From Sphagnum magellanicum (taxonomy: Eukaryota > Streptophyta > Sphagnopsida > Sphagnales > Sphagnaceae): a DNA stretch of 64,000 nt. Below the pieces are notes generated by a model that was given only the letters and a program-made list of their open reading frames with translations, was not told where the DNA came from and made no database searches. Positions 2,422-53,600 of the stretch are shown one piece after another (position 1 is the stretch's first letter; every line of letters begins with the position of its first letter). A program made the position numbers and the translations under genes. The stretch is taken from assembly GCA_021904315.1 (NCBI GenBank), contig CM038911.1, forward strand, positions 19,937,390 to 20,001,389, read 5' to 3'.

Positions 2422-2509
2422 ATGAACGCAACATTCCTAGGTTTCAAATGGGGTTATATTAAATAGTTTTACAACAATGAAAAGTCATGAATTTTGTTCA
2501 AAAGCATAT

Positions 2510-5500
2510 TGGATGATTATCAAAGAGCTTTGCAAGACATTGACAACGTTCATGTTCTTGATTCCAACAATGCAATCATTTTGCAAAGTCGTGAAATGTC
2601 AAAAAGGTGTTAGATGATTATTAAGGAGCCTTGCAAGACCATAACAACATTGATGTTCTTGAATCAAACAATGCAATCATTTTTGCAAAGGGGTGGAGAT
2701 GTCAAAAGGATGTTGAGTGATTATCAAGGAGCCTTAAAGGACCTTAGCAAGGTTGATTTTCTTGAACCAAACAATGCATTCACTTTGAAAAGCCGTGGAG
2801 ATGTTAAAAAGATGTTGGAAGACTTTGACAAAATTAATTTTTCTTGAACCAAACAATGCATTCACTTTGCAAAACCATGGAAATGTCAAACAGAAATTGA
2901 AGGACTATTCAGGAACCTTGTAGGACCTTAACAAGGCTAATGTTCTTGAACCAAACGATGCATTCACTTTGCAAAGTTGTGGAGATGTCAAAAACATGTT
3001 GGAGGATTTTCAAGGAGCCTTGGAGGACCTTGATAAGGTCAATGTTCTTGAACCAAGCAACACATTCACTTTGAAAATCCATGGAGATGTGAAAAGGATG
3101 TTGGAGGACTATCAAGCCTTGGAGGGCCTTGAGAAGGCTGATGTTCTTGAACCAAACCATGCATTCACTTTGCGAAGTTGTGGAAATGTCAAAAAGATGT
3201 TGGAGGATTTTCAAGGAGCCTTGGAGGACCTTGACAAGGTTGATGTTCTTGAACCAAGCAACGCATTCATTTTGCGAATCCGTGTAGATGTCAAAAAGAT
3301 GTTGGAGGGTTTTCAAGAAGCCTTGAAAGACCTTAACAATGTTGATGTTCTTGAACCAAACAATGCATTCATTTTGCGAATTCGTGAAAATCTCAAAATG
3401 ATGTTGGAGGATTTTCAAGGAGCCTTGAAAGACCTTGACAAGGCTCATGTTTTTGAACTAAACAATGCATTCACTTTGCGAATCCGTGGAAATGTGAAAA
3501 AGATGTTGAAGGACTATCAAGGAGCCTTAAGAGACCTTGACAAAGCTAATGTTATTGAACCAAATGACGTATTCACTTTGAAATGCCGTGGAAATGTCAA
3601 AAGGATGTTGGAGGACTATCAAGGAGCCTTGAAGGACCTTGACAAGGCTCATGTTCTTGAACCAAATGATGTATTCACTTTGAAATGGCGTGGAAATGTC
3701 AAAGGGATGTTGAAGGACTATCAAGGAGCCTTGAAGGACCTTGACAGGGCTGATGTTCTTGAACCAAACAATGCATTCATTTTGCGAAGCCGTGGAGATG
3801 TCAAAAGGATTTTGAAAGACTATCAAGGAGCCTTGGAGGACCTTGACAAGGTTGATGTTCTTCAACCAAACGATGCATTCACTTTGGGAATGCGTGGAGA
3901 TGTCAAACGAATGTTGAAGGACTATCAAGGAGCTTTAGAGGACCTTGACAAGGCTAATGTTCTTGAACCAAACAATGCATTCACTTTGCGAAACTGTGGA
4001 GATGCCAAAAGGATGTTGGAGGACTATCAAGGAGCCTTGAAGGACCTTGACAAGGCTGATGTTCTTGAACCAAACAATGCATTCATTTTGCGAAACCGTG
4101 GGGATGTCAAAAAGATTTTGAAGGACTATCAAGGAGCCTTCGAGGACCTTGACAAGGCTGATGTTCTTGAACCAAACGATGCATTCACTTTGGGAATCCG
4201 TGGAGACATCAAACGAATGTTGGAGGACTATCAAGGAGCCTTGAAGGACCTTGACAAGGCTGATGTTCTTCAACCAAACGATGCATTCACTTTGCGAAGG
4301 CGTGGAGATGTCAAACGAATGTTGAAGGACTATCAAGGAGCTTTGGAGGACCTTCACAAAGCTGATGTTCTTGAACCAAACCATGCATTCATTTTGCAAA
4401 ATCGTGGAGATGTCAAAAGGATGTTAGACGACTATCAAGGAGCCTTGGAAGACCTTGACAAGGCTAATGTTCTTCAACCAAACGATGCATTCACTTTGCA
4501 AAGGCGTGGAGATGTCAAACGAATGTTGAAGGATTATCAAGGGGCTTTGGAGGACCTTGACAAGGCTGATGTTCTTGAACCAAACAATGCATTCACTTTG
4601 CAAAATCGTGGAGATGTCAAAAGGATGTTGGAGGACTATCAAGGAGGCTTGGAAGACCTTGACAAGACTAATGTTCTTCAACCAAACAATGCATTCACTT
4701 TGCAAAGGCGTACAGATGTCAAACGAATGTTGAAGGACTATCAAGGAGCTTTGGAGGACCTTAACAAGGCTGATGTTCTTGAACCAAACAATGCATTCAC
4801 TTTGAATAGGCGTGGAAGTGTCAAAGGGGTTTTGAAGGACTATCAAGGAGCTTTGAAGGACCTTGACAAGGCTGATATTTTTGAACCAAACGATACATTC
4901 ACTTTGGCAATCCGTGGAAATGTCAAAGTGAATTTGAGGGACTATCAAGGAGCTTTGGAAGACCTTAACAAGGCTGATGTTCTTGAACCAAACAATGCAT
5001 TCACTTTGCAAACCCGTGGAGATGCCAAAAAGATGTTGGAGGACTATCCAGGAGCCTTGAAGGACCTTGACAAGGCTGATGTTCTTCAACCAAACGATGC
5101 ATTCACTTTGTGAAGGCGTGGAGATGTCAAACGAATGTTGAAGGACTATCAAGGAGCTTTGGAGGACCTTAACAAGGCTGATGTTCTTGAACCAAACCAT
5201 GCATTCACTTTGAAAAACCGTGGAGAAGTCAAACAAATGTTGGAGGACTATCAAGGAGTCTTGAAGGACCTTGACAAGGTTGATGTTCTTCAACCAAACG
5301 ATGCATTCACTTTGCGAAGGCGTGGAGATGTCAAACGAATGTTGGAGGACTATCAAGGAGCTTTGGAGGACCTTAACAAGGCTGATGTTCTTGAACCAAA
5401 CAATGCATTCACTTTGGGAATCCGTGGAGATGCCAAAAAGATGTTAGAGGACTATCAAGGAGCCTTGAAGGACCTTGACAAGGTTGATATTCTTCAACCA

Positions 5501-6028
5501 AACGATGCATTCACTTTGCGAAGGCGTGGAGATGTCAAACGAATGTTGGAGGACTATCAAGGAGCTTTGAAGGACCTTAACAAGGCTGATGTTCTTGAAC
5601 CAAACAATGCATTCACATTGGGAATCCGTGGAGATGCCAAAAAGATGTTGGAGGACTATCAAGGAGCCTTGAAGGACCTTGACAAGGCTGATGTTCTTCA
5701 ACCAAATGATGCATTCACTTTGCGAAGGCGTGGAGATGTCAAACGAATGTTGGAGGACCATCAAGGAGCTTTGGAGGACCTTAACAAGGCTGATGTTCTT
5801 GAACCAAACAATGCATTCACTTTGCAAACCCGTGGAGATGCCAAAAAAATGTTGGAGGACTATCAAGGAGCCTTGAAGGACCTTGACAAGGCTGATGTTC
5901 TTCAACCAAACGATGCATTCACTTTGCGAAGGCGTGGAGATGTCAAACGAATGTTGGAGGACTATCGAGGAGCTTTGGAGGACCTTAACAAAGCTGATGT
6001 TCTTGAACCAAACGATGCATTCACTTTA
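2510..6028 (+). repeat. 102-bp tandem array encoding TPR units (copy A)
   Basis: Each 102-bp unit encodes one 34-residue helix-turn-helix TPR. From 2,972 to 6,028 there are 1,019 codons, which is 30 units with one codon missing in the unit near 3,110 (QALEGL instead of QGALEGL). A few decayed units lie upstream. From about 4,250 onward, units ending LQPNDAF and LEPNNAF alternate, so the true repeat there is a 204-bp dimer. The array also opens long frames on the minus strand; these are by-products of the repeat. Confidence 0.9.
5111..5113 (+). other. Premature TGA in copy A
   Basis: The unit junction reads ACT TTG TGA AGG CGT GGA. Many other units in this gene read ACT TTG CGA AGG CGT GGA. 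One C-to-T change at a CpG gives the stop, as expected from deamination of methylated cytosine. The frame continues open after it to the kinase domain, which shows that the lesion is recent compared with the decay of the first units. Confidence 0.9.
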
Positions 6029-7867
6029 ATAATTCATGCCTACACAAATTGGAGTTTGAATAATTATCAAATCACATTGGAAACTATGGAAAAGGTTCAT
6101 GTTCTTGATCCAAATAATCATTTGATATTACAAACTCAAAATTGGTTGAAATGGATGTTGACTGAATACCAACCTATGATAGAGTCCTTGCAATGCAATT
6201 CGAGTATTCCATTTTTCGCATATGATGAACTGAATTTTGGGAAACTTTTGGGGAAAGGATTATTTGGAGAAGTGTACGAAAGTCATTGGAAAGACATAAA
6301 GATTGCAGTTAAAGTTTTAAATTGGAGTGGCTTTTACAATGAAGGTGCAAAAAAATCTTTCACATCAGAAATGTGCACTTTGAGGTTAATTCAACATATC
6401 AATTTGGTTCGACTTTTGGGCTATTGCATTCAAGGGCCAGACCACATGTTGGTGTATGAATACATGTCAAATAAATCTCTTGATAAATGGCTCTTTCGTG
6501 ACAAGCTTTTGAATTGGAACAAACGAGTGTCCATAATTATAGGAGTTGCTCACGGATTGGCATACTTACATCACACATGTAATCCAACCATTATTCATCT
6601 TGACATCAAACCAAGAAACATCCTTTTGGATAAGGATTACACCCCAAAATTGGTCGATTTTGGGTTGGCCAAAATTTTAAAAGGCAGCAATGAAAATGAG
6701 GTATGTGCCTTCCCATTTTTTTCTTTGATTAATTATATGCATACACATTATATCTACACAAATATTGATTCAAGTTTTGAAACTTTTGTGACTAAAAATA
6801 AATTCAAAAATAAATTAAGGCTTCCTATTGGTATTATGCTACCTTTAATGTGGATTTTATGAATTTCAACATGTATATTATATTATGCAAAACCCATTGA
6901 AATAATCCAATTATGTTATTTTCCAAATTAAAATTCAGGATATTACACTAGCTTCAACTTCCACACCAAGATCATTCGAATATATGGCACCAGAAATTCT
7001 ACCAGAATCAAAACACAGACATGTGTCGCCAAAGTGTGATGTGTATAGTTTTGGAGTATTATTGATCGAACTTGTGAATGGATCACGATTCACTTTGGAT
7101 AGGGGTAAAATTCGCGAATTTATCCAATGGGCACAAAAAATTCATGTGGAAGAAGATGGATTTCAACAAAATTTCAATGTTATATTCAAAAATTCAATTA
7201 TGGGGTTTAACAACAATGAAGCCAAATTAATTTTGCAAATTTCCTTTAAATGCATCCAGGTAATCTTCCTACCAAATTTTTTATGTTTATCATTCAATTT
7301 GTGGTCATGTTAATTTCAAAAACCTAAAATTGTGGGTTAATGGAATACTTAAAACAATTTGAAATGAATAAAATTGGATTATTCAATAAACATGTAAAAC
7401 TTCCTAAAAAGGTTTATACATGTAAATGGTACATTCAAGAAAGCACATTTGATTTAGAATTTTTTTAAACCATTTTCATGTTTGATATATATATAATCAA
7501 CAAATATCTTATTTTCAATGTCAATAAAATGATGTTGAATAAAGGCATAGGTTGCTTTCAACATTTGTTTGTGAAGGATATGTTCCAATCTTGTCATTGA
7601 ATATTGAAACATGAACATATGGTCCCATTTATTGGAGCATGTTTTGTCATAGTTTGATTGCAATGTATAACAATTAATTAATAAACATCTAACTTTCATG
7701 ACATTTGTTTCTTATAGGAAGACCCAAAGAAAAGACCAGGAATGCAAGAAATTTTGCAAATGTTGGAAGAATTGAATGGAAAGAAAGACATACAATTTAC
7801 CAAATCAATCCAAGACTATTTCAACATATTATCAAAAAGATTTGGATCCAATTTCAAGAGGACATGA

Positions 7868-10800
7868 TTCGTATATTTATTATATGATTAAATTATATTC
7901 ATATACCATATACCATAATCAACTATATACCATGAAATCCATATAAAATCCATACAAAATCTTGTTATCAAGGGGTGAAAGTCCATGAGTTCACTTTACA
8001 AATCCATAAACTTTTTAGTTTTGCAAATTATGCATAAAAGATACCTACATCATAGTAATGGTTTTTTTTTGTCAATTTTGTGATGTTGCTCAAGTGGCAA
8101 TTGTCCATAAATATATTAATCAATTTTAACAATGGGCAACATTATGTTAAAAGTATCCCCAAGAACCATAGGACCAAATAGTTCAAGACTCCCTAGCCAC
8201 ATGGCACAAAACATATTATTTGAAATCCTATTGGTCAAGTTTTGAAATTGAAAATCCACAAGTTAGGGTTCATTTCCTCTACCTTTTAATGTTGGACTTT
8301 TTCTATTGTGTGCACTATTTTTGTTGTTTTTCACTTAGATGTAGTTTGTGCATTTGCTTGTTCACGCACAAGGTTCAAGCATTTGTGTTGTAATTCCTTC
8401 AACAATATAGTGCCTTGAGCATGTGTTGAACATTTTGTTCGAATTCCCCACCACTAAAACATAAAGTTTGTGTGCCTACTTGCTCTTGCTTCAAACTTTC
8501 ATTGTTCACATTGGATTTGGATAATCCATGGTTAGTTTTCAATGCCCATTTCAAAATCTTCAAAGCTTGTTAGATTTGTTTGTGCATTGTTGAGTTTAAG
8601 GTTTGTTTTGGGATTTGTTGAAAGCTGATGGATACTTACAATGAATGTAATCTAGTTTGTAGCACATTATTAGAGGCCTTTTGAATGATAATGATAATGT
8701 TAAAAAGCCTAATAACAAGGATGTGGTGATTGAAGAAATTAACGGGTTTTTCATATCAAAGATAATAAACAATATGCTAAAACATGGCATATATTACTTC
8801 ACATTTTATCGTGTCTCTCATAATGTAGGTCACATATTACTACATAGATATGTAATGAAATCAAATTTGTGGTTCATGCCACTAGTAATAATTATGGTCA
8901 TAATACTTCATGCCATTAATTGTGTGACTTTTATTACTACAATTGGAAAATATAATTAAATATTAGGTATTTATTGATTTATGACATGGAAACATGTATT
9001 TAAAATATAATAAAACCACTTTGACAATCTAACTACCTATTGATTAACATGATTTATCAACCTTGCCTATTTTTAAACCTTAAACAACTTAGGCTAGCTT
9101 ATAAAACTGGGCTAGCTAAAACAAATAGTTTAAGTTCAAGTAGCTTAAAAGTTTAGATAGGTCGATATGCATATATAAGTAAATATGCCTAAGTAAGTAG
9201 GTAAGTAGGATCCTTTTTTATTGGCTCATCACAAGTAATACTTGCATTTTGAATATAATTAGTGCATGTATTGGTGGCATCTCGTTGTTAAACTTGTTAC
9301 AAGATCCTTGTTCTTTCATCAACATTCATGTCTTCTCTTCATCATCAACGTCAGGTTATAAGGCCTTTATGGAGATGGCAATGTCATTTCACGTGCATCA
9401 TTGATGTTCTTAAAAAACCATTCGACATATGATGGCATGTTTTGCTTGTCCACCTTGCTACATGTTGTTAGGTCTTGCACCAATGCATTTATATTTTTAT
9501 TGTATACAAGCACAAATGTTTCATGTGCATCATTTTTTGGGTCCAAATTATTTTCCAACCATTTCTTTCAGCTTGTGTTGTTCAACACTTTTCTTTTTTC
9601 ACTATGCAATCCCAACAAATAATCACATTGTCTTTGAAACGAAATTATGTATTTTTGGTTAGTTGATTTCATTGACCACAAATTATCTTCAAGAGGTTGT
9701 CACAAGTTGTTCAAAAAGTATGGAATAAAAATCTATATCATTGTCTCGTAAATCTTATAGTCTTGAAACCCATTTCATGTTGCCTAATATCCCACTTGTA
9801 CTTTCAAGTCTACATCTACCTTCAACAGATTTCTTTATTGCACAAGCGAGTATAAATCCAAGTCTACAAGAGTTTGACAAGACTATGATGCATTCCCTCT
9901 AAACATCTTTGGAAATGAACGAAATGACTTGCAATAATATCATTCCATTGGAAACTTGCAATAATCGAATTATAGTGGTGACAAATATTACAAGTTGTGC
10001 TAGTTCATTATATACTTCCAACTTTCACAGTTGTTATAATTGTTATAATGTCATTCCTCATAACAACTCCAATAATTAATAGTTTGATTTAAACTAAATT
10101 CCAATAATGTCATATTGTTCAAAAAATATCAAACTCATTACCACCTCATTTATTCCATAACATCAAAACCATGTTGAATGTTGGAACCAAATGTGTTTAA
10201 GTAAATTTATTTTTTGCTACAACATTATGATAGATTTATTGCATGTCAAAACCTAATGGTTGTTGTGGACAACCAATGTTTGGATAATGTCACTTCTAAG
10301 AAGTTCATGTAACAATTTGATTTGTTTATGAGATTTCATCTAGTGAAAAAGACGCATGTTTTTTTAATGGTACTATATAGTGGTCTTAAATCACCTCCAC
10401 TATAGGGTCCTTTAAACCCCCTAAACTACAAAATCCTATTGTTAATCTAAATAATTTCCTAACAAGATAATATGTGTCAACAAAATTGCTATTGGGAGTT
10501 GTGACGAATTTGATCATAATAGCTTTTGACCATTAGATTTTTTGATTTTATTCGTGTCACGTTCTATTCAAAACAAGTTCCTACATGTGATGACATGTGT
10601 CAAGCTTTACAAATGAAATCTATATGTCAATTAGATTTATTTCTTAGCTAGTTACTAAAGTATGTTTTCACAACAATTTCGTTGAAGTGTAATTGTTTAA
10701 TGTTTTCTGAAAGGTTTGTGGCGTAAGGGTGAATTATTATCTTTTCTATTGTTTCCTCGTCATTCAAACATACTTTAAGATAAACAAATTTTTCTTCAAT

Positions 10801-27864: not shown

Positions 27865-29098
27865 GTTTAACCAATTTTAGCCAATCATTTAAGCCAAATT
27901 TAACCATTTTATTTTATATTAAATTTGACCATTAAAATTAATTAGTAAGATTTAACCATTAAATATAATTTTAAAATTTAGCCATTATATTTAATCATTA
28001 AATAATTTTAGCTACTTAATTTATATTAATTAGCTGATCATTTAATCATTATATAGGTTTAACCATTAGAGTTAATCATCAATTAAATAAAAATTGGTCC
28101 TAAATTTAACCATTGAATTTAATCATTAAATAAATTTAGCCATAAATTATAATTGTTGAATTTAGTTGTTAAATAGGTTTAGTCACTAAATTTAATTATT
28201 GAATTTAATCATTAATTAAATTTAAACATTAAGTTCTACCATTAGAGTTAATCATTAAATATATTTTGTCATTAAGTTTAATTATTGAAATTAATTATTA
28301 AAAAAGTTTATCCATTGAATTGAATCATTAAATAAGTTTAGCCATTAAATGTGCCATTGAATTTTTTTATTATATAGGTTCAGCTATTAAGTTTAGTCAT
28401 TGTATTTAGCCATTAAGTTTAGCCATTGGATTTAATCATTAAATAGGTTCAGCCATTAATTTTAACCATTGGATTTAATCAATAAATTGGTTTAACTATT
28501 ATATTTAATTGTGAAATAGGTTTAATCATTAAGTTTAACCATTAGATATGGTCATTAAATAGGTTTAGCCATTAAGTTTAGCCATTGGATTTAGTCATTA
28601 AATAGGTTTAACCATTGAATTTAATCCTTAAATAGGTTTGGCCATTAAGTTTAGCCATTACATTTAATCAATAAATATGTTTAGCTATTAAATTTAGCCA
28701 TTGGATTTAATTGTTAAATAGGTTTAACCATTAAGTTTAGCCATTGCATTTAATCATTAAATAGGTTTAGCCATTACATTTAGTCATTGAATTTAATCCT
28801 TAAATAGGTTTAGCCATTAAATTTAGTCATTGTATCTAGTCGTTAAGTAATTTTAGCCATTGGATTTAGTCGATAAATAAGTTTTAAAATGAAGTTTAGC
28901 CATTATATTTAGTTGTTCAATAGGTTTAGCCATTAAGTTTAACCATTTGATTTAATCATTAAATAAATGTAACCATTAGGTTAGGTTTTTAATTTAGTCA
29001 TTAAATAGGTTTAGTCATTAAATTTAGCCATTGAATTTAATCATTAAAGAAGTTTAACCATTAAGTTTAATCATTGAATTTCGTCATTAGATTTAGCT
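27865..29098. repeat. Degenerate minisatellite of TTAGCCATT/TTAATCATT units
   Basis: About 1.2 kb is built from motifs like tttagccattaagtttagcc, attggatttaatcattaaat and aggtttagccatt, alternating to give a loose unit of about 20 bases and a higher unit of about 40. Units differ from each other by many substitutions, so the array is old. It ends just before the tRNA-like element at 29,123. Confidence 0.85.
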
Positions 29099-30777: not shown

Positions 30778-33640
30778 TTTTGGCTTGTGTTGAAACTTGA
30801 GATTAGTTATAGAGTTATAATATCTTGAAGAATTTGGGTTTCTTTTAGAGGATTTTTTCAAGATTATATTTTTGCATGGTGAAATATCTGAGTTTCCATA
30901 ATTTTTCTTTTGCATTAAGATACTTTTTAATGTAAATGGCAAGGCCACAGTGTGACACATCCCTTGTTAACCCCTTAATTGAAGTTTGGTCAAAACAGTC
31001 CCAACTGGGATGACCCTGGTCATGCAATCACATAACTCCCCAAAGTCAGGTAAAATGTTGGAATTTTGAAATTTTGACTTGTGAGAGAGTTGTCAGGAAT
31101 TTCTTGAAGTTGAGTGTTTGAACTTCAGAAGAAAAGAAATTTGGGTGAGAAAGAGAAAATGCCCAATAAAAGTGCAATTCTACTAATTAGCTACAAGTTC
31201 AAAATGTTCATCCTTTTTGAAAATTTGATCAAGCTATCATCCTTCATTGATGATAAAAATTCTAAGGTTGGTTAGACAAAAGGCATCCATCCTGTAAAAA
31301 GCCATTGGCAAACTGGGAGCCATAACCAGCACCCAATGCTGGCTCCCAGGCATAATGGGCTAAATGTGCTGCTTAGGTAGGCCTTAAAGTAACTAGGTAG
31401 GTCTTAACATAGTCCAGGTAGGTAAGAGAAGGCACAATCTGCCACTGTGACCGTTTTCTGAAAAACATCAATGACCGAAAACGTGCAGAATCGGCAGGTT
31501 CAGTCCATTATATCTGTCATAATGTCCTCTGAAGGCCCTGGTGTCAGGGCAGTATACCCAGACCTCGGGCTCCGCCCTCAATTCCAAGGCCTTCCATGAC
31601 ACCAGGGCCTTCCACTACACTGGATCCGCCCGTCTTTCAGCAGAGGAAATATTCTGTCTAGTGAGCTGCCCTGCAAGTACAGCTATGAAATATGTACCGC
31701 TGATTTTTGATTACTTGTTTGTGACCATGGAATCTTTCTAGTTTCGTTAGGATACGTCCCTTGGGGAAACCTTAATTGAGTCAAGTGATCAAACCGTGTC
31801 GAACTTTATTAAGAGAAAGCACCAGAAAGAGGGGGAAAACAAGGAACAAACAGAAAGGACCCATGTCTGAGCCAGAAAACAAAAATGGTCAACAAGGTGG
31901 GCAAGCAAGAGGAGTGAGAAAAAGTCACATAGTCGACCCCAATATCATAAGAAGCATGTTAAAAAACAAGAGGGGAGGTACACTAGAAAAAACACCTAGC
32001 CTAGAAGAACCCTCGCCAGTTATAATGGCTTGTCACATTAAAATAGTTGCAGCATACACCTGCTGCGACGTCACTAACACCCTCTGTCTATGAAAAGCAT
32101 GCAAAATTGAAAGTGGAAGACCTCTGGAACCCTTTGCTACCCAAGCCATGTTTGCACGATGATGGATGGCTTGTTGATGTTTGAATAGGTCACCCTAGAG
32201 ATTTGGAAAAAGTTAGTTTTAGCACCAAGAAATCCTCATGCCCAATTAGGCAGAAACCTGTGGCACGTGGAGAGTAACTGAGGCATCTTTATTTGCATTA
32301 ACCCTTTTTTTTACTGCCCAATTTTTTCCAAAAAGAATTTAAAATTTTTGAAATTGAATTATTTTTCAGGGTTTCAATCACCAGAAGTGAGAAAATCGCC
32401 CGATTTTTGAGTTTGGTTTTTGATATGTAGCCAAAACTATGGAAGGATAACTAAATATTTTGGTTTTCATATTTGGAACATTTTGTCACTTTTTGCATTT
32501 TTTGGAGAAAAATCACTATTTTTGAAAAAATTGAAAGAATTCACCAATTTTTGTGTGTTTATTGGAAGCACAACAGTAGACCCACTTTTCTCTGGTGACA
32601 TGTGCAGTTGCATGCTGTGTGCATCATCAAGCAATGACCTAGTGCATCCATTTTGTAAAGGCTAAAAACTTTACTGATCATAACAAGGGGTCTGTCACAC
32701 TGTGCCCTTGCCATTTACATTAAAAAGTATCTTAATGCAAAAGAAGAATTATGAAAACTCAAATATTTCTCCATGCAAAAATTATAATCTTCAGAAATCC
32801 TCTAAAAGAAACCAAAATCCTTCAAGATAATATAACTCTATAACTAATCTCAAGTTTCAACACAAGCCAAAATATCATCTTTCAAAAATCTTCATATAAA
32901 AATAGACCTATTACCCAGGAGGCCAAAATCCCTTAAGCTGCTAAACTCTCTAATGAATCTAAGCACAATATCCTTGCCTTGGTAGGCAAGGCCAACAAAA
33001 ATTTCAAGTCTAGGCCTAGCACCTACGCATGTGAAAGTTTGAGGTTTGCATGTGCCATGACTTTATGGGAAACGAATTATGAACAATGTTTCCCGGTAGG
33101 TGTAATCAAGGGAGAAAAAGTTGGACAAATTGATATAATTCATGTAAGAGGAAAGTTCAGACAAAGTACTCTAGGAAACTCTACCTGGCCTCAATTTTCT
33201 CTGCTGACACACACATGGTGGGCACCAGTCCATCAATGATGGACCGCTTGCCTCCATTTTCTAAACGCCAAACATTTGAGTGATCAGAGGAAGTTCCGTG
33301 TCCAGGACGCACGCATAACTTTATTAAAGACTTCCAATCTTGGACAGCGTGAAAGCACACAACAACCAGAGAAAAAGTCAGCAAAGTATCCACTTGCAAT
33401 AATATATTCCAGAGTAAAGTTCTGAGTAGGTACTACAAAAAACTTTAACCAGCCTCAATTGTCTTTGCTGCCACATGGCGTGTACCATCCTAGAAGGACC
33501 AGTTGCATCCTTTTTCTCAACCTCTTCATAGCCACCTTCGACGTTGTTCATGGGTCTACCCTAAGTGCAGGGAATCCCATGGACCAGTTCACCCTTGGCT
33601 CAGATTTGCATCTAGATGATCCCTTGCATCCTTTCTTCAA
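30778..33640 (+). repeat. Copy C of the three-copy repeat segment
   Basis: Matches copy B from 19,765 onward and copy A from about 50 onward. Its left inverted-repeat arm (30,778-30,965) lacks the outer ~110 bases. The right arm is at about 32,690-32,991. The interior carries the conserved hairpins near 31,310-31,345 and 31,533-31,610. It leads directly into the leader of TPR-kinase copy C, as in copy A. Confidence 0.75.
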
Positions 33641-34286
33641 AAACCAGAAGTTCTTCACCGGTCTAGCATAAATGGAAGGAATCCAAGAAATTACTTCTCC
33701 CTTGGCTTGGATTTGCATCAAGGTGCTTGCTCCAAATTTCTATCAAGGTTGGTTCATTTGTTCCCCTATTGCCAGCATCACATGCGTTTAGAGGGCTTGA
33801 TGGCTCAATGCAACAAGAAGAGTATTCATCATCCAATTTCCAAATGTAAGTGCATCTCACATACCATCATGTTTTTATGATCAACCCTAGTATGTCTAAA
33901 ACTTTGGTTCCATGTCCTTTAAAACAATAACAATAACATGCATATTCCTAGATGCATAATGGCTGGAATTTGCTTAAAGGTTCATTTACTATGATTTTAT
34001 ATTCAAGTGGGTTAACTTGATCCTCTTCTTTGCAACAGTCCTCGCATGCATTTCATCGGGCTAGCAACTAATGTGAAAGGACAACAAGAATTATCAAGCT
34101 CATTCAAGTGCCACCTTTTGTGCAATTTCTCAAAACTTGTAAGTATGTGCCTCACATTCTAACATCTATCATCTTGAACTCAATATGTCTTGTAATGTCA
34201 AAACTAAGTTTGTGTTTTTAATTAATGGTATGAAGGTTGTAATGAATGCAATTTGTTTCAGAGTTCAAGTAGTGAATAATTAAAAC
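33641..34286 (+). promoter_or_regulatory. Leader region of TPR-kinase copy C with possible 5' non-coding exons
   Basis: Nearly identical to the leader of copy A. GTAAGT donor-like sites occur at about 33,846 and 34,140 with related flanks, and an acceptor-like tttcagag lies near 34,257-34,264. An ATG follows at 34,287, opening a frame with 30-odd non-TPR residues (including FLGFKWGYIKKFHPT) before decayed TPR units. This may be the ancestral start. Confidence 0.35.
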
Positions 34287-34882
34287 ATGAACACAACATT
34301 CCTAGGTTTCAAATGGGGTTATATTAAAAAGTTTCATCCAACTATTTCAAATAGTTTTACAACAATGAAAAGTCATGAATTTCGTTCAAAAGCATATTGG
34401 ATGATTATCAAAGAGCTTTGCAAGACATTGACAACGCTCATGTTCTTGATTCCAACAACGCAATCACTTTGCAAAGTCGTGAAATGTTAAAAAGGTGTTA
34501 GATGATTATTAAGGAACCTTGCAAGACCATAACAACATTGATGTTCTTGAATCAAACAATGCAATCATTTTTGCAAAGGGGTGGAGATGTCAAAAGGATG
34601 TTGAATGATTATCAAGGAACCTTGAAGGACCTTAGCAAGGCTAATTTTCTTGAACCAAACAATGCATTCACTTTGCAAAGCCGTGGAGATGTCAAAAAAA
34701 TGTTGGAAGACTTTGACAAAACTAATTTTCTTGAACCAAACAATGCATTCACTTTGCAAAGTTGTGGAAATGTCAAACAGAAATTGAAGGACTATCCAGG
34801 AACCTTGTAGGACATTGACAAGGCTAATGTTCTTGAACCAAACGATGCATTCACTTTGCGAAGTTGTGGAGATGTCAAAAAC
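34287..34882 (+). pseudogene. Decayed N-terminal TPR units of the copy C gene
   Basis: TPR-coding sequence is visible but cannot be read in one frame. An extra T at about 34,384 (gttcaaaag), a one-base loss at about 34,481 (cgtgaaatg), TAA for CAA near 34,511, an extra T near 34,569 and TAG for AAG at 34,808-34,810 interrupt it. One unit also lacks about 12 codons (EDFDKTNF). All five interruptions are also present in copy A, so they arose before the block was duplicated. Confidence 0.7.
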
Positions 34883-37800
34883 ATGTTGGGGGATTTTCAA
34901 GGAGCCTTGGAGGACCTTCACAAGGTTGATGTTCTTGAACCAAACAACGCATTCACTTTGCGAATCCATGGAGATGTGAAAAGGATGTTGGAGGATTATC
35001 AAGCCTTGGAGGGCCTTGACAAGGCTGATGTTCTTGAACCAAACAATGCATTCACTTTGCGAAGTTGTGGAGATGTCAAAAAGATGTTGGAGGATTTTCA
35101 AGGAGCCTTGCAGGACCTTGACAAGGTTAATGTTCTTGAACCAAGCAACACATTCACTTTGCGAATCTGTGTAGATGTCAAAAAGATGTTAGAGGGTTTT
35201 CAAGGAGCCTTGAAAGACCTTGACAACGTTGATGTTCTTGAACCAAACGATGCATTCATTTTGCGAATCCGTGAAAATGTCAAAATGATGTTGGAGGATT
35301 TTCAAGGAGCCTTGAAAGACCTTGACAAGGTTGATGTTTTTGAACCAAGTAATGCATTCATTTTGCGAATCCGTGGAAATGTGAAAAAGATGTTGAAGGA
35401 TTATCAAGGAGCCTTGAAAGACCTTGACAAAGCTCATGTTATTGAACCAAATGATGTATTCACTTTGAAATGCCGTGGAAATGTCAAAGGGATGTTGGAG
35501 GATTATCAAGGAGCCTTGAAGGACCTTGACAAGGCTGATGTTCTTGGACCAAATGATGTATTCACTTTGAAATGGCGTGGAAATGTCAAAGGGATGTTGG
35601 AGGACTATCAAGGAGCCTTGAAGGACCTTGACAAGGCTGATGTTCTTGGACCAAATGATGCATTCACTTTACGAAGCCGTGGAGATGTCAAAAGGATTTT
35701 GAAGGATTATCAAGGAGCCTTGAAGGACCTTGACAAGGCTGATGTTCTTGAACCAAACAATGCATTCACTTTGCAAACGCGTGGAGATGTCAAACGGATG
35801 TTAAACGACTTTCAAGGAGCCTTGGAGGATCTTGACAATGCTGATGTTCTTGAACCAAACAATGCATTCACTTTGCAAAAGCGTGGAGATGTCAAACGAA
35901 TGTTGAACGATTTTCAAGGAGCCTTGGAGGACCTTAACAAGGCTGATGTCCTTGAACCAAACAATGCATTCACATTAAAATGGCATGGAAATGTCAAACG
36001 AATGTTGAAGGACTTTCAAGGAGCCTTGGAGGACCTTAACAAGGCTGATGTTCTTGAACTAAACAATGCATTCACTTTGCAAAAGCGTGGAGATGTCAAA
36101 CGAATGTTGAACGACTATCAAGGAGCCTTGGAGGACCTTAACAAGGCTGATGTTCTTAAACCAAACGATGCATTCACTTTGCAACGGCGTGGAAATGTCA
36201 AAGGAATGTTGAACGACTTTCAAGGAGCCTTGGAGGACATTAACAAGGCTAATGTTCTTAAACCAAACGATGCATTCACTTTGCAATGGCGTGGAGATGT
36301 CAAAGGAATGTTGAACGACTTTCAAGGAGCCTTGGAGGACCTTAACAAGGCTGATGTTCTTAAACCAAACGATGCATTCACTTTGCAACGACGTGGAAAT
36401 GTCAAAAAGATGTTGGAGGATTATCAAGGAGCGTTGAAGGACCTTAACAAGGCTGATGTTCTTGAACCAAATAATGCATTCACTTTGAAACGGCGTGGAA
36501 ATGTCAAAAGGATGTTGGAGGATTATCAAGGAGCGTTGAAGGACCTTAACAAGGCTGATGTTCTTGAACCAAACAATGCATTCACTTTGCAAATGCGTGG
36601 AGATGTCAAACGAATGTTGAACGACTCTCAAGGAGCCTTGGAGGACCTTAACAAGGCTGATGTTCTTCAACCAAACGATGCATTCACTTTGCAACGACGT
36701 GGAAATGTCAAAAAGATGTTGGAGGATTATCAAGGAGCGTTGAAGGACCTTAACAAGGCTGATGTTCTTGAACCAAATAATGCATTCACTTTGAAACGGC
36801 GTGGAAATGTCAAAAGGATGTTGGAGGATTATCCAGGAGCGTTGAAGGACCTTAACAAGGCTGATGTTCTTGAACCAAACAATGCATTCACTTTGCAAAT
36901 GCGTGGAGATGTCAAACGGATGTTGAACGACTCTCAAGGAGCCTTGGAGGACCTTAACAAGGCTGATGTTCTTCAACCAAACGATGCATTCACTTTGCAA
37001 ACGCGTGGAGATGTCAAAGGAATGTTGAACGACTTTCAAGGAGCCTTCGAGGACCTTAACAAGGCTGATGTTCTTAAACCAAACGATGCATTCACTTTGC
37101 AACGACGTGGAAATGTCAAAAGGATGTTGGAGGATTATCAAGGAGCGTTGAAGGACCTTAACAAGGCTGATGTTCTTGAACCAAATAATGCATTCACTTT
37201 GAGACGGCGTGGAAATGTCAAAAGGATGTTGGAGGATTATCAAGGAGCGTTGAAGGACCTTAACAAGGCTGATGTTCTTGAACCAAACAATGCATTCACT
37301 TTGCAAATGCGTGGAGATGTCAAACGAATGTTGAACGACTTTCAAGGAGCCTTGAAGGACCTTGACAAGGCTGATGTTCTTGAACCAAACAATGTATACA
37401 TTTTGCTAACACGTGTAGATGTCAAAGGAATGTTGAACGACTTTCAAGGAGCCTTGGAGGACCTTAACAAGGCTGATGTTCTTAAACCAAACGATGCATT
37501 CATTTTGCAACGACGTGGATATGTCAAAAAGATGTTAGAGGATTATCAAGGAGTGTTGAAGGACCTTAACAAGGCTGATGTTCTTGAACCAAACAATGCA
37601 TTCACTTTGCAAATGCGTGGAGATGTCAAACGAATGTTGAACGACTTTCAAGGAGCCTTGAAGGACCTTGACAAGGCTGATGTTCTTGAACCAAACAATG
37701 TATACATTTTGCTAACACGTGTAGATGTCAAAGGAATGTTGAACGACTTTCAAGGAGCCTTGGAGGACCTTAACAAGGCTGATGTTCTTAAACCAAACGA

Positions 37801-39547
37801 TGCATTCATTTTGCAACGACGTGGATATGTCAAAAAGATGTTGGAGGATTATCAAGGAGCGTTGAAGGACCTTAACAAGGTTGATGTTCTTGAACCAAAT
37901 AATGCATTCACTTTGAGATGGCGTGGAAATGTCAAAAGGATGTTGGAGGATTATCAAGGAGCGTTGAAGGACCTTAACAAGGCTGATGTTCTTGAGCCAA
38001 ACAATGCATTCACTTTGCAAATGCGTGAAGATGTCAAACGAATGTTGAATGACTTTCAAGGAACCTTCATGGACTTTGACAATGCTGATGTTCTTGAACC
38101 AAACAATGTATACATTTTGCAAACACATGGAGATGTTAAACGAATGTTGAACGACTTTCAAGGAACCTTGGAGGACCTTAACAAGGCTGATGTTTTTGAA
38201 CCAAACAATGCATTCACTTTGCAAAAGCGTGGATATGTCAAACGAATGTTGAACGACTCTCAAGGAGCCTTGGAGGACCTTAACAAGGCTGATGTTCTTC
38301 AACCAAATGATGCATTCACTTTGCAAACGCGTGGAGATGTCAAAGGAATGTTGAACGACTTTCAAGGAGCCTTGAAGGACCTTAACAAGGTTGATGTTCT
38401 TAAACCAAACGATGCATTCACTTTGCAACGGCGTGGAAATGTCAAAAGGATGTTGGAGGACTATCGAGGAGCCTTGAAGGACCTTAACAAGGCTGATGTT
38501 CTTGAACCAAACAATGCATTCACTTTGCGAATGCGTGGAGGTGTCAAAGGAATGTTGAACGACTTTGAAGGAGCCTTGAAGGACCTTGACAAGGCTAATG
38601 TTCTTGAACCAAACAATGCATACATTTTACAAACACGTGGAGATGTCAAACGAATGTTGAACGACTTGCAAGGAACCTTGGAGGACCTTAACAAGGCTGA
38701 TGTTTTTGAACCAAACAATGCATTCACTTTGCAACGGCGTGGAAATGTCAAAAGGATGTTGGAGGACTATCAAGGAGCCTTGAAGGACCTTAACAAGGCT
38801 GATGTTCTTGAACCAAACAATGCACTCACTTTGCGAACGCGTGGAGATGTCAAAAGAATGTTGAACGACTTTGAAGGAGCCTTGAAGGACCTTGACAAGG
38901 CTAATGTTCTTGAACCAAACAATGTATACATTTTGCAAACACGTGGAGATGTCAAACGAATGTTGAACGACTTGCAAGGAACCTTGGAGGACCTTAACAA
39001 GGCTGATGTTTTTGAACCAAACAATGCATTCACTTTGAAAAAGCGTGGAGATGTCAAACGAATGTTGAACGACTCTCAAGGAGCCTTGGAGGACCTTAAC
39101 AAGGCGGATGTTCTTCAACCAAACGATGCATTCACTTTGCAAACGCGTGGAGATGTCAAAGGAATGTTGAATGACTTTCAAGGAGCCTTGAAGGACCTTA
39201 ACAAGGCTGATGTTCTTCAACCAAACGATGCATTCACTTTGCAACGACGTGGAAATGTCAAAAGGATGTTGGAGGACTATCAAGGAGCCTTGAAGGACCT
39301 TGACAAGGCTAATGTTCTTGAACCAAACAATGCATCCACTTTGCAAAAGCGTGGAGATGTCAAACGAATGTTGAACGACTGTCAAGGAGCCTTGGAAGAC
39401 CTTAACGAGGCTGATGTTCTTGAACCAAACAATGCATTCACTTTGCAAACGCGTGGAGATGTCAAACGAATGTTGAAGGACTGTCAAGGAGCTTTGGAGG
39501 ACCTTGACAAGGCTGATGTTCTTAAACCAAATGATGCATTCACTTTA
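34859..39547 (+). repeat. 102-bp tandem array encoding 46 TPR units (copy C)
   Basis: The span is 1,563 codons, which is 46 units minus one codon (the same short QALEGL unit as in copy A). Higher-order blocks of three units (306 bp) are duplicated head to tail: 36,386-36,691 with 36,692-36,997, and 37,304-37,609 with 37,610-37,915. Within a pair only a few bases differ, much less than between neighbouring units, so these are recent unequal-exchange or slippage events. Confidence 0.92.
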
Positions 39548-41387
39548 ATAAGTCATGCCTACACAAATTGGAGTTTGAATAATTATCAAATCGCATTGGA
39601 GACTATGGAAAAGGTTCATGTTCTTGAACCAAATAATCATTTGATATTACAAACTCAAAATTGGTTGAAATGGATGTTGATTGAATACCAACCTATGATA
39701 GAGTCCTTGCAATGCAATTCGAGTATTCAAATTTTCACTTATGATGAACTGAACTTTGGGAAACTTTTAGGGAAAGGATTATTTGGAGAAGTGTATGAAA
39801 GTCGTTGGAAAGGCATAAAGATTGCAATTAAAGTTTTAAATTGGAGTGGCTTTTACAATGAAGGTGCAAAAAAGTCTTTCGCATCAGAAATGTGCACTTT
39901 GAGGTTAATTCAACATATCAATTTGGTTCGACTTTTGGGCTATTGTATTCAAGGGTCAGACCACATCTTGGTGTATGAATACATGTCAAATAAATCTCTT
40001 GATAAATGGCTCTCCCATGACAAGCTTTTGAATTGGAACAAACGAGTGTCCATAATTATAGGAGTTGCTCACGGATTGGCATATTTACATCACACATGTA
40101 ATCCAACCATTATTCATCTTGACATCAAACCAGGAAACATCCTTTTGGATAAGGATTACACCCCAAAATTGGCCGATTTTGGGTTGGCCAAAATTCTAAA
40201 AGGCAGCAATGAAAATGAGGTATGCGCCTTCCCATTTTTTTCTTTGATTAATTATGTGCATACACATTATATCTACACAAATATTGATTCAAGTTTTGAA
40301 ACTTTTGTGATTGAAAATAAATTAAAAAATAAATTAAGGTTTCCTATTGGTGTTGTGTTACCTTTAATGTGGATTTTATGAATTTCAACATGTATATTCT
40401 ATGATGCAAAACCCACTGAAATAATCCAATTATGTTGTTTTCCAAATTAAAATTCAGAATATTACACTGGCTTCAACTTCCACACCAGGATCATTTGGAT
40501 ATATGGCACCAGAGATTCTACCAGAATCAAAACACAGACATGTGTCGCCAAAGTGTGATGTGTATAGCTTTGGAGTATTATTGATCGAACTTGTGAATGG
40601 ATCACGATTCACTAAGGATAGGGGTAAAATTCGCAAATTTATCCAATGGGCACGAAAGATTCATGTGGAAGAAGATGGATTTCAACAAAATTTCAATGTT
40701 ATATTCAAAAATTCAATTGTGGGGTTTAACAACAATGAAGCCAAATTAATTTTGCAAATTTCCTTTAAATGCATCCAGGTAATCTTCCTACCAAATTTTT
40801 TATGTTTATCATTCAACTTGTGGTCATGTTAATTTCAAAAACCTAAAATTGTGGGTTAATGGAATACTTAAAACAATTTGAAATGAATAAAATTGGATTA
40901 TTCAATAAACATGTAAAACTTCCTAAAAAGGTTTATACATGTAAATGGTACATTCAAGAAACCACATTTCATTTAGAATTCTTTTAAACCATTTTCATGT
41001 TTGATATATATAGTCAACAAATATCCTATTTTCAATGTCAATAAAATGAAGTTGTTGAATAAAGACATAGGTTGCTTTCAACATTTGTTTGTGAAGGATA
41101 TGTTCCAATCTTGTCATTGAATATTGAAACATGAACATATGGTCCCATTTATTGGAACATGTTTTTTCATAGTTTGATTGCAATGTATAGGAATTAAATA
41201 ATAAACATATAACTTTCATGACATTTGTTTCTTACAGGAGGACCCAAATAAAAGACCAGGAATGCAAGAAATTTTGCAAATGTTGGAAGAATTGGACGGA
41301 AAGAAAGACATACAATTTACCAAATCAATCCAAGACCATTTCAACATATTATTAAAAAGATTTCAATCCAATTTCAAGATGACATGA
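34883..41387 (+). CDS. TPR-array protein kinase, copy C (46 TPR units, non-RD kinase)
   Basis: Predicted 1,935-residue protein from three exons: 34,883-40,219, 40,458-40,778 and 41,238-41,387 (TGA), all joined in phase 0 at GT-AG sites. The start is the first in-frame ATG after the TAG at 34,808; the open frame begins slightly earlier, and a spliced upstream start is possible. The array from 34,859 to 39,547 is exactly 46 units (45 of 34 residues, one of 33). Each keeps the TPR positions Gly8, Ala20, Ala27 and Pro32 (RGDVKRM...GALKDL..A.VLEP). Two divergent units follow (NNYQIALETMEKVHVLEPNN). The kinase (roughly residues 1,620-1,925) has GKGLFGEVY, the IAIK lysine, a helix-C glutamate (SEMCTLRL), HLDIKPGN, DFG and GYMAPE. 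HLD in place of HRD makes it a non-RD kinase. No signal peptide or membrane segment is seen, so it is probably cytoplasmic. TPRs bind partner proteins, so a scaffolded signalling kinase is inferred; the substrate is unknown. Confidence 0.75.
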
Positions 41388-42030
41388 TTTGTATATTTAT
41401 TATATGATTAAATTCAACACATATACTAAATGTAACATGTGTCCATTTTTGTATTGTAACCTTTTGTAAATGTGGAAAGATGTTCAAATAAGGGGTGTAT
41501 TCACAATTGGGGTACCAAAATGAAACGACTTATTTTTAAAGGACTATAAATGACAACTTTGGATTTTTGTTTATCTCATGTTATTGTAATTGTAGTGGAT
41601 TGTTGTATGTTAATAGGTAAAATGATGTCTTGTTAAATTAACACAAACATTTAAAAATAATTTGGATATTATGTAAATGTCATTTTGAGTCCTTTAAACT
41701 AATTATATCAAATGTCTAAATTGCATTAAAAAAAAGTAATGAAAGAAAATATATAGAATCATACAATTGAATTCAAACTTTTTCTATAATAAAAACATGT
41801 CCCTTTTTATGATAGCACATGTTTATTGGGTCATTAGAAAAAAATTGTCATTTTGCAATTGTTGTATGCAAATGAATTTTAGTTGCATGCAACGCATGTA
41901 ACTATTGGACCCCATAGTTGTTTAAAACAAGTTGCACATAGCTAATAAGTGCATATGACAAATGTGAACAATATACATGGTATGAATTTATATTTTATAC
42001 ATATGTATTATTCTATAGAGGGTTACCCAT
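41388..42030. other. 3' flank of copy C and intergenic DNA
   Basis: Homology to copy A ends near 41,416. The remainder is AT-rich without a gene. A transcript end for the kinase gene probably lies here, but no strong polyadenylation signal stands out. Confidence 0.5.
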
Positions 42031-50600: not shown

Positions 50601-53600
50601 AACTGAGGAAGAGCATGCATTACTGCAAAAATATGCACAGCCTCCTGGTGAAATGCCATGGAAACCTTCTCTCATTGCTTTTCCCAGCTTCCAGCTGCTT
50701 CCTACACCAATCTACACTGTCAAGCATTCTGTTCGTACAGTGTCCATGCTCATTGATGTTCTTCAAGGTCTCCAGGAACCTGCTTTCCACTGTACCTCCA
50801 AGGTTATACCCTTCAGCAACTCTGAGCTTTATCTTCTGTTGCTTGCAAATTGGTATCTGAGCTTCAAGGCTTCTCTTCAGTCAATTCTCTTCCTCATTGG
50901 GTATGTGATTCCACTCTGTTCATAGCTTGTGGAAGGGCTGTACGCAGATTTCAACTTCAGGCAACTGTCTGCTCTCACCAGAAGGCAACACTGCTGGTGT
51001 ATTGTCAGTAATAGGTATGAGTTGTTCTTGTTACTTTGCAAAGTTAGTGCTGGGCTGTATTTGTGCCCTATCTTGACAATCCCGTTGACATTTATGTGGC
51101 TTACGAGTCCACTCCTGTATGCTGAAGTTTCTGTGTAATTTTTCTGTTTGTGGTCTTCTTAATTTGAGATTGGTGTACAGATGGAGACTCTGCAGATCAA
51201 ACAAAGGTGACTACCAATGAAAAGGCTGGCTGGGATGAGGTGTATTCACCAGTAGATAATCCCATGGAAGTCGTTTCACCGAAGTTTGACAATGTGGATT
51301 TTCACCAATCAAATCAAGGACTGTCAGGAGATGTTGCAGGGTTGTTGGGTGTTACCTCAATTGTTGCCTCGGACTTAGAGATCAACAACAAGGACGCTCA
51401 CAGTCCTATGCCACTTACCTCAGGTGCTTCCTCCTCTCACATGTTCCTGTGTTCCTTTTGCGACACTTCTGTCACAGTTTGGTGTTTCTGTTTCATCTTC
51501 TGGGTTACTATAGTTGTTGAGATTTGCAAGGATCTTCACTGAAGAAAACAAGGTATAATGCATAAGTGCCAACTCTCTACTGGAGCCCATGTGTTCCAAA
51601 TGGGAGAGAGTACAGGAAATGGCAGCAAAGATGGCAATGGCACTTCAATACATGGCTTGGATTTCATGAAGACTAGACAAGTGATATGCAAGATGGTTGC
51701 TGGGAATGCTGCAGGTCAGAAGTCTGAGTCAGAAGGAAATGTAGGAGATGAAATGTTGGGTTTCTCCACATCTCAACCTCTAGCATCCTTGAGAGGGACC
51801 CCAAGCTTGATCAGGTCACACAGGTTTCTGTTCCATACAGAGATTGTATACATGAATGCTGCAGGTCGGTTAGTGATTGCATCACCTCCAAAATGGCTGC
51901 CGCTTGTTGAAGTGCTGACCAGCTCTTGCATTCATCAAGAAGGGACTAAGGTGTCCTTGTCACATACATCACCAAATCTGCAGGCCACCAAAGCTAAGTC
52001 AATTAAGTGTGAAGAGTACAAAGCCTTTGTAGAAGTTGATCGTCTCAGGGAACGCAACACACCCAATGATTGTGCAACTGCAACAAATTTCCAAGTGCCT
52101 GAGAAGCTTTTTGGAGGCATTGAGTGCAGGAAGATGGATCTAGAAAGTCCTCAGTTTACAAAACCATGCAGTTCTCCTTCGAAGATGACTATTCAACCAT
52201 CAGTGAACTTCATTGCATCCACACCTGAGGTCAAGCCTCCTCCATCTGCTACTGCTTATCATGTGACATTTGTTGCAGAAACACCCAATCCACACGGTAG
52301 ACTCAATAGTTCGCCACTGCCATGTATTGCTTCTCGGTTCACTCCCTTCCCCTCCCCAATATTAGAAACTCCTGTCGTATCAAAGACACACCATATGTCA
52401 CTTGCTTCTCCAAAACATATGTCACCTCTTCTGTTTTCAAGCCCATCCCCTGAGCAGCTTATGACACCTGCAGTTTTGAAAAAGAGTCCACAGTGTTCAG
52501 CAAACCTCATGACCTTTGGTGCAACAGGAGTGGGAGGCAGTTTGGAAAATTGTAAGGCTGTTGAAAATGGCTACTTGCCAGGTTCTTCTGCTGTACCTGA
52601 AACTGGTCCATTCAAGTCCAAATCACTTGAGACATTGGACACTGGATCTTCAGGAAGGACCATTGCACGTAGCATGGGAGGATCTCAGATCACCAATCCC
52701 CAATTATTGCCTGATCTGCCAGATGGTGAACAGAAGTTGTTGATATTATCTCAACAACAAAGACAGCCAAATGTTTCCCATGTATCTCAGTGCCAGCTTC
52801 AAGGCCATGGAACATCTGGAGAGATGGGTGAACCTGAAAGCTCAAAACATGGGATTGAACACAGTAATGAAATCAGCAATGATGAGGGAGGAGTAGAGAG
52901 CACTGGGGTGCTGGCCTCAATGCCAAGACCACGAAGAAGGTTCAAGCGCCTCAAGAAGGCCTGCAAGTTAATGATTCCCACTCCTCCAGAGCCACAAAAC
53001 AATAAACAGAATCTTTGGTGTTCTGGTGGTCAAGAGCATGCCAGAGTGCGAAAGACAACAATGAATTTTGGTATGCCTTTTCACTGACTCTGTCATTGTA
53101 TGCAAGAAAAACTTCCACTATGTGGATTCCTCTACGATTCTAATGGGCAAATTTTCAAGTAAGCTTCTTTCACGTTGTTAGAATTTAGGGTTCAGGGTTT
53201 AAACTATAGCTCACAACCAGCCTTTTGATTACTGTATGTGGTACTCATATGGGTACTACTGTGTGCAGGAAAAGACCAGAGGAAGTTAGCAGTTCGAAGT
53301 TTTATTGATGAGGAAGCAGAGTACGTCATTTTATTATTATGTTATATTCAATGGCAATGGTTTGGGTGTGCAAGATTTCTACCTTATACAAGCTCTGCTC
53401 CTTTTGACAGGATTACATGGAGCACATAATAAGTTCATACTAACTCAGTGTCATTTTGTGGTGCTTTCCTTGTGAAGAGTGTCATCTGATGAAGACATAT
53501 CGACAGATGAAGATGACAGTGTTGAGGCCAATGGATCACTTGAGGGCTTCATTGATCCCTCACATTCTCAGCACCTCCAGTCTGGTTCAGTTGACATGAT

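Follow-up and report, generated by a model that had tools for sequence, protein, structure and literature searches.

The 64-kb window analysed here, i.e. the whole stretch at positions 19937390-20001389 of contig C5 of the Sphagnum magellanicum genome (438,994,042 bases in 31 contigs), contains a gene in which 47 TPR units precede, in the same reading frame, a protein kinase domain. This focal gene, designated WA, is one member of a family that counts at least 47 loci, including partial ones, on 17 contigs; the second copy present in the window is designated WB, and the other loci of the family bear L-numbers. The kinase of the family is under purifying selection, the arrays differ in length between paralogues, and their units vary most, within helix A, at the residues that form the ligand-contact face. 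These features are read here, tentatively and as the likeliest single reading rather than as one we would call probable outright, as those of a family of recognition kinases, cytosolic and of the RLK/Pelle non-RD type, that has expanded in this lineage and whose sensor would be a very long, homogenised TPR superhelix.

Concerning the array, Tandem Repeats Finder (TRF) reported, at 34728-39546, a period of 102 with 47.3 copies, 87% matches and 0% indels, and a unit scan from 34847 yielded 47 units, spaced by 34 aa in 45 cases and by 33 aa in one. The 47th unit (39536-39637) is a divergent TPR, leaving 46 near-uniform units across 4.69 kb; the two methods thus agree with an earlier note on this DNA, which had described 46 tandem units with one codon of length variation over about 4.7 kb. 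The near-uniformity claimed there holds for the regular spacing and the level of matches, but not for every position, since the units of the focal array do vary at some of them. The stop-free stretch comprises 1,779 codons, from the ATG at 34883 to the end of exon 1; its frame begins past a TAG at 34808-34810, and that ATG, lying within unit 1, is indeed the earliest in-frame one, as had been noted, its role as the start being putative. A product of 1,935 residues is predicted, with the 47 TPRs N-terminal to the kinase. Pfam matched TPR_2 (E=2.6e-87) and TPR_1 (E=4.8e-76), as well as Pkinase on exon 1 (E=7e-30) and also on exon 2; together with the motifs and the three exons separated by GT-AG introns (Table 1), this confirms the in-frame fusion to a kinase with the main catalytic motifs that the earlier note had reported. 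Open reading frames on the minus strand across the array (up to 428 aa) were taken as by-products of the repeat. The array is unlikely to be an assembly artefact, because the same architecture recurs at other loci and the assembly is a long-read one—the 439-Mb assembly of S. divinum, built from PacBio long reads at about 70x with an N50 of 17.5 Mb for the contigs and ordered into 20 chromosomes (PMC9946827), being taken, by inference, as its source.

The focal kinase exhibits GKGLFGEVY, AIK, SEM, HLDIKPGN, DFG and APE, i.e. a complete catalytic set (G-loop, the Lys of AIK, the Glu of helix alpha-C, the Asp of HxD, DFG and APE). In a direct alignment, HLD stands where BRI1 has HRD, the Arg being replaced by Leu, which makes the kinase a non-RD one; HLD is present in all 16 open kinases of the family. 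Among solved structures, the kinase matches BRI1 (E=8.6e-32), BAK1, CERK1 and SYMRK best, with the IRAKs lower, and nearly all of the best 60 of 2,345 PDB matches are plant RLK or receptor-like cytoplasmic kinases, CTR1 or IRAK. The class, assigned by these PDB sequence matches, is thus supported as RLK/Pelle without a membrane helix: none was found in the predicted product, whose N-terminus is putative, the highest 19-residue hydropathy being 1.06. The lack of a hydrophobic segment in it ruled out that the TPRs form the ectodomain of a membrane receptor.

The number of loci is the union of three genome searches, each scoring 40 of 59-76 candidates, so that the counts are lower bounds; at least 41 loci match the first kinase exon. 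A one-off fusion was ruled out by the presence of these relatives in the genome, and the gene can no longer be treated as the single case that it was in the earlier note. The analysed set of 22 loci consists of 20 fetched loci (about 10 kb each) and both copies from the window, three short loci having also been fetched. Long open arrays occur in eight of the 22, with 47 (focal), 54, 47, 36, 34, 25, 23 and 19 units, and the spacing in them is 34 aa throughout except for one of 33; the unit number thus varies between relatives, as the note had expected. L011 has a 978-aa frame reaching into the kinase, and several further arrays of the family are interrupted. Even close paralogues differ in array length, i.e. 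54 versus 47 units in L009 and L010 (kinase dS 0.030) and 34 versus 25 units in L016 and L018 (kinase dS 0.022), and their unit-by-unit alignment implies gains and losses along the length of the array. The longest array measured is that of L009, where 54 units lie in one open frame of 2,112 aa (2341-8676) that continues into the kinase. With regard to the genomic arrangement, contig C11 holds at least 11 family loci, eight of them in about 4.2-5.3 Mb, a pattern typical of birth-and-death families.

All three kinase exons are open, with GT-AG introns, in 16 of the 22 loci. For these 16 kinases the codon model gave an omega (the dN/dS ratio) of 0.600 and a kappa of 3.77 with a log-likelihood (lnL) of -4232.77; neutrality fits the family clearly worse, because the best lnL at omega=1 among the kappa values tried was -4247.34. 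Pairwise omega by the Nei and Gojobori method (NG86) had a median of 0.50 over 120 pairs. The dN/dS of the kinase exons, which the earlier note had proposed to check, is thus not near 1, although choosing copies for their openness biases the selection tests towards constraint. Intron divergence is smaller than synonymous divergence in 16 of the 17 listed kinase pairs, perhaps through conversion or constraint. In the pair L015/L017 the kinase introns diverge by 0.015 as against a kinase dS of 0.091, which suggests gene conversion between paralogues.

It is against these values that a decaying birth-and-death family has to be weighed, in which most copies, possibly the focal one among them, would be recent pseudogenes whose openness stems from unit homogenisation and youth. 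Such decay would agree with the kinase exons being broken in six of the 22 loci, with the decayed units 5' of the focal frame, with a kinase omega of 0.6 that is merely moderate, and with a ratio of dN to intron divergence (K) of up to 0.94 between the two window copies; the changes on the focal branch (8 synonymous, 11 nonsynonymous) point the same way, these and those on the WB branch (6 and 13) being too few to conclude firmly. The sister copy WB, 33.5 kb off, combines a stop in its array with harsh kinase changes such as G137R, G176R and G179E, and has probably become either a pseudogene or a gene cut short. The focal copy, however, has no stop in its 1,779 codons, where 4.4, 8.8 and 11.0 would be expected neutrally at 0.02, 0.04 and 0.05 substitutions per site, and it keeps its catalytic residues; the even 34-aa spacing in the eight long arrays, save for the single 33, and the loss of more than 14 log units at omega=1 likewise speak against decay. 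The absence of stops supports function without proving it, as homogenisation could purge some of them. On balance, we regard general decay as rather improbable; the non-functional relic that the earlier note had kept in view suits WB and is disfavoured for the focal copy.

The variability of the units was compared in nine arrays (WA, L009, L010, L013, L015, L016, L018, L019 and WB). In TPRs at large, variability is highest at positions 2, 5, 9, 12, 13, 33 and 34, which belong to the concave face, and co-crystals of HOP exhibit contacts at positions 2, 5, 6, 9, 12 and 13 (PMC1261162). In the present arrays, positions 5, 6, 9, 12 and 15 stand out in both entropy and pairwise change, and the six crystal-contact positions are precisely the six most variable among positions 1-14 of helix A (nine-array mean; exact P=1/3003). 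The enrichment of variability, again for the nine-array mean, has P=0.0088 for the classical seven positions, the set used first, and P=0.0006 for the eight-position groove obtained by adding position 6 once it was seen to vary—a position that, albeit added post hoc, is among the listed crystal contacts (PMC1261162). For residues 5, 6, 9, 12 and 15, which were picked after the data had been seen, the diversity at codon positions 1 and 2 is 3.2-45 times that of fourfold sites, which serve as a neutral reference within the units themselves, in eight of the nine arrays (WA 6.8, L009 8.7, L010 45, L013 3.2, L015 8.9, L016 12.2, L018 10.6 and WB 4.2). Among young unit pairs within genes, the ratio of nonsynonymous to synonymous changes (N:S) is 131:21 for groove positions as against 221:81 for the remaining ones (Fisher P=0.002), the neutral expectations being 3.2-4.1 and 2.2-2.6, respectively. 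Unit pairs between close paralogues (58 of 92, with at least 93% identity) gave 87:10 versus 120:47 (P=0.0006), a signal coming mainly from L009/L010, and the pairwise NG86 omega of the seven-position groove is above 1 in six of the nine arrays. The contact residues thus change more than the other residue classes; diversifying selection on the groove is suggested but not proven, because the codon tests are mixed.

Two other explanations of this pattern deserve attention. The variable positions might be mutational hot spots, or might reflect founder unit types spread by conversion, with no selection for recognition; blocks of recurring unit types are indeed seen in the focal array, synonymous change is raised too at codons 6 and 12, and the omega values obtained by partition are mixed. 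Divergence between founders would nevertheless mark fourfold sites equally, yet their nucleotide diversity (pi) is low (0.005-0.122) in eight of the nine arrays and reaches 0.287 only in L019, and hot spots do not agree with the synonymous changes per codon among young pairs, which are not higher in the groove (2.6) than elsewhere (3.1), so that we hold this explanation to be quite improbable. The earlier note, on the other hand, had proposed that the repeat number tunes the valency of a scaffold. In such a constitutive scaffold kinase the long array would serve a single conserved partner as a multivalent platform, and the residue variation would be drift; multivalency suits long arrays of one module, amino-acid change outside the groove is near neutral among young units, and close paralogues do differ in array length. 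Drift, however, should not pick out, within helix A, the six positions of crystal contact when fourfold sites remain low in eight of nine arrays, nor does one partner call for so many loci on 17 contigs. A scaffold is therefore considered unlikely, if somewhat less so than decay, and the tuning of valency is not supported as it was put forward, the variation on the ligand-contact face pointing to recognition instead.

It should be pointed out that several observations weigh against the recognition-kinase reading itself, which is drawn from the genome sequence. Long open frames were the reason for choosing eight of the nine arrays, the groove is variable in TPRs generally (PMC1261162), position 6 joined the groove set late, and in L019 residues 5, 6, 9, 12 and 15 are no more diverse than fourfold sites (ratio 1.0). 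The codon model, run with partitions on five of the nine arrays, gave omega values for groove versus rest of 0.97 versus 1.26 in WA, 1.45 versus 1.00 in L009, 2.45 versus 3.70 in L010, 4.05 versus 0.86 in L013 and 1.56 versus 1.18 in L016, i.e. a mixed outcome. The NG86 groove omega is as low as 0.33 in the focal array, 0.48 in L019 and 0.42 in WB, because the inferred synonymous change is also high there. Outside the groove, the N:S of young pairs is near neutral, single units being thus weakly constrained; in our reading, single units of so long an array are individually dispensable. As for the kinase, dN/intron K spans 0.29-2.31 in the 17 listed pairs and exceeds 1 in two of them, and L023, as one of the 16 open kinases, has NFG in place of DFG. 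The start codon of the focal gene is unproven, given the decayed units upstream. Two AlphaFold models are both of low confidence: the first, of 12 units alone (mean predicted local distance difference test, pLDDT, 55.8), exhibits a strand/helix pattern in which paired helices were not seen; in the second (overall pLDDT 41.4), the last two uniform units are helical, with block means of about 74-83.

If the genes are expressed and the arrays fold as superhelices, recognition kinases of this kind could have arisen and could act as follows. Unequal exchange and gene conversion among the 102-bp units would keep the units alike and alter their number, with changes building up on the concave ligand-contact residues. 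Partners—plausibly microbial peptides or proteins, or the plant's own—would bind along the array, and binding would bring kinases together or free them, leading to phosphorylation signalling, in the manner of the repeat domains in immune receptors. The proposal is made because alike repeats, changes in repeat number and variation of the concave face occur together here as in the TPRs of fungal NLRs, and because a non-RD kinase provides a tie to immunity, such kinases being mostly linked to innate immunity (PMC3085482, PMC4759884); the likeness to a recognition receptor is one of anatomy, and an immune role would be in keeping with it. A wider claim is possible, though we consider it doubtful: in peat mosses, separately from NLRs, cytosolic recognition kinases may have evolved into a large repertoire with a homogenised TPR superhelix of up to 54 units, a hypervariable groove that reads the identity of partners and a non-RD kinase output, which would jointly make the repertoire a TPR counterpart of fungal NLR repeat diversification, with a kinase in place of the nucleotide switch.

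Upstream of the array lies a leader of about 1.3 kb; WB and 17 of the 20 fetched loci match it blockwise, and L020, L022 and L026 gave no match. Its part 34001-34390 has at least 40 main matches in the genome, including itself, with 71-100% identity (best 40 of 59 candidates); the identity to the 39 further genome places among the matches listed is 71-94%. No conserved start codon or reading frame was seen in the leader in an alignment of 11 copies, and it could be a family-shared promoter or untranslated exons. An upstream start at 34365 (ACAACAATG) was rejected, ATG being present in only four of the nine aligned copies with letters there. A 5' coding exon spliced in from about 34041-34138 was rejected as well: its in-frame join to the CAG at 34259-34261 hits a stop (SSSSE*), and that CAG is kept in two of the 11 aligned copies, nine having CAA. 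Translation most likely starts at the first in-frame ATG inside the open array. An early break resembling that at 34388-34810 of the focal array is shared by WB, L009, L010 and L011, and therefore the erosion of the array from its 5' side is likely old. Both window copies are held by a tandem segmental duplication, about 33.5 kb apart and 88-90% identical (85-6027 versus 31943-37914, 90%; 2498-7906 versus 35994-41426, 88%), the left copy, WB, being the interrupted one. Elsewhere in the window, AT-rich minisatellite-like arrays with periods of, e.g., 13, 30, 43 and 86 (TTTAGCCATTAAA type) occupy 27896-29096, and a 509-aa open frame with no Pfam match is found at 51558-53087, in a G+C-richer block at about 44-62 kb.

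Table 1. Features of the focal gene WA and of the sister copy WB (positions in the window)
Feature	Position	Strand	Basis or remark
5' leader of WA, family-conserved in blocks; promoter and/or untranslated exons	33048..34384	+	genome search, alignment
Decayed TPR units 5' of the open array	34388..34810	+	frameshifts, in-frame TAG 34808-34810
Putative start codon, first in-frame ATG of the open array, within unit 1	34883..34885	+	start role inferred
46 near-uniform TPR units (34 aa x45, 33 aa x1)	34847..39535	+	TRF, unit scan, Pfam
Divergent capping TPR (AYTNWSLNNYQ...)	39536..39637	+	in 9 of 12 loci with array end read; not in L015, L016, L018
Linker (HLILQTQNWLKWMLIEYQPMIESL...)	39638..39724	+	
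Kinase part in exon 1, G-loop to past DFG, in frame with the array	39725..40219	+	Pfam, motifs
Intron 1 (GTAT...TCAG)	40220..40457	+	
Kinase exon 2 (YMAPE ... DVYSFG ...)	40458..40778	+	Pfam
Intron 2 (GTAA...ACAG)	40779..41237	+	
Kinase exon 3 including stop codon 41385-41387	41238..41387	+	
WB TPR array	2960..6118	+	frame broken by stop ending at 5113
WB kinase exons 6206-6700, 6939-7259, 7718-7867	6206..7867	+	open; G137R, A150V, G176R, G179E (alignment numbering)

With regard to known systems, the kinase domain is of the same kind as that of the plant RLK/Pelle kinases BRI1, BAK1, CERK1 and SYMRK and of the animal IRAK4. The focal product differs from the RLK/Pelle receptors in having no transmembrane helix, an N-terminal TPR array in place of the ectodomain, and HLD where BRI1 has HRD. 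The mitotic kinases BUB1 and MPS1 also combine N-terminal TPRs with a C-terminal kinase, but their TPRs are few and degenerate and their kinases belong to other groups. A search of bacterial and archaeal genomes gave nine pattern matches and no relative. The BSKs are likewise receptor-like cytoplasmic kinases joined to TPRs; in those of Arabidopsis, however, the kinase comes first and is followed by two or three C-terminal TPRs (PMC6429265), whereas the focal gene has the reversed order and 47 TPRs, and membership of the BSKs was ruled out by this order. In Physcomitrella, kinase-NBS-LRR genes and TIR-NBS genes with C-terminal TPRs (PMC3991678) provide moss resistance-like genes that use kinase or TPR modules, while no NBS was matched here in exons 1 and 2. 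As far as aimed searches of the open literature show, the fusion order, the array length, the family size and the occurrence in a moss are undescribed, the TPR domains, the RLK/Pelle kinases and repeat diversification being each known singly; no description of the TPR-array-kinase architecture was listed by these searches, which leave subscription papers and supplements aside and do not establish absence from print, and passages of PMC11289646 and PMC4759884 contain nothing on a TPR-kinase fusion.

The closest parallel in repeat behaviour is found in the fungal NLRs with TPR, ANK or WD repeats, where alike repeats, changes in repeat number and variation of the concave TPR face (PMC4986451) form the same triad as here, and where the TPR sites under positive selection map to the concave side (PMC4986451). 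Alike units combined with concave-face variation, as in that diversification, are present in the moss arrays, the codon tests being mixed. Membership of the NLRs was ruled out, neither NB-ARC nor NACHT being among the Pfam matches of focal exons 1 and 2, the part scanned, with exon 3 and the leader outside it. The moss family further differs in its kinase output, in the N-terminal position of its repeats and in its 19-54 units as against 2 to >14 TPRs in the Podospora loci (PMC4986451); moreover, the change in repeat number seen here is one between paralogues of a single genome. Highly alike ANK, TPR and WD repeats make up just 0.4% in green plants (PMC4986451), a figure against which dozens of such genes in one family would stand out. 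The moss family also provides near-consensus TPR arrays that occur naturally and are unusually long, proteins with 19 and 28 TPRs having been named as human examples (PMC11514114). If the proposal is true, a keystone genus of carbon-storing plants would possess a large repertoire of recognition kinases generated by module homogenisation and groove diversification, the strategy documented in fungal NLRs, and the family would offer a test in plants of whether changes in repeat number and groove yield new recognition specificities.

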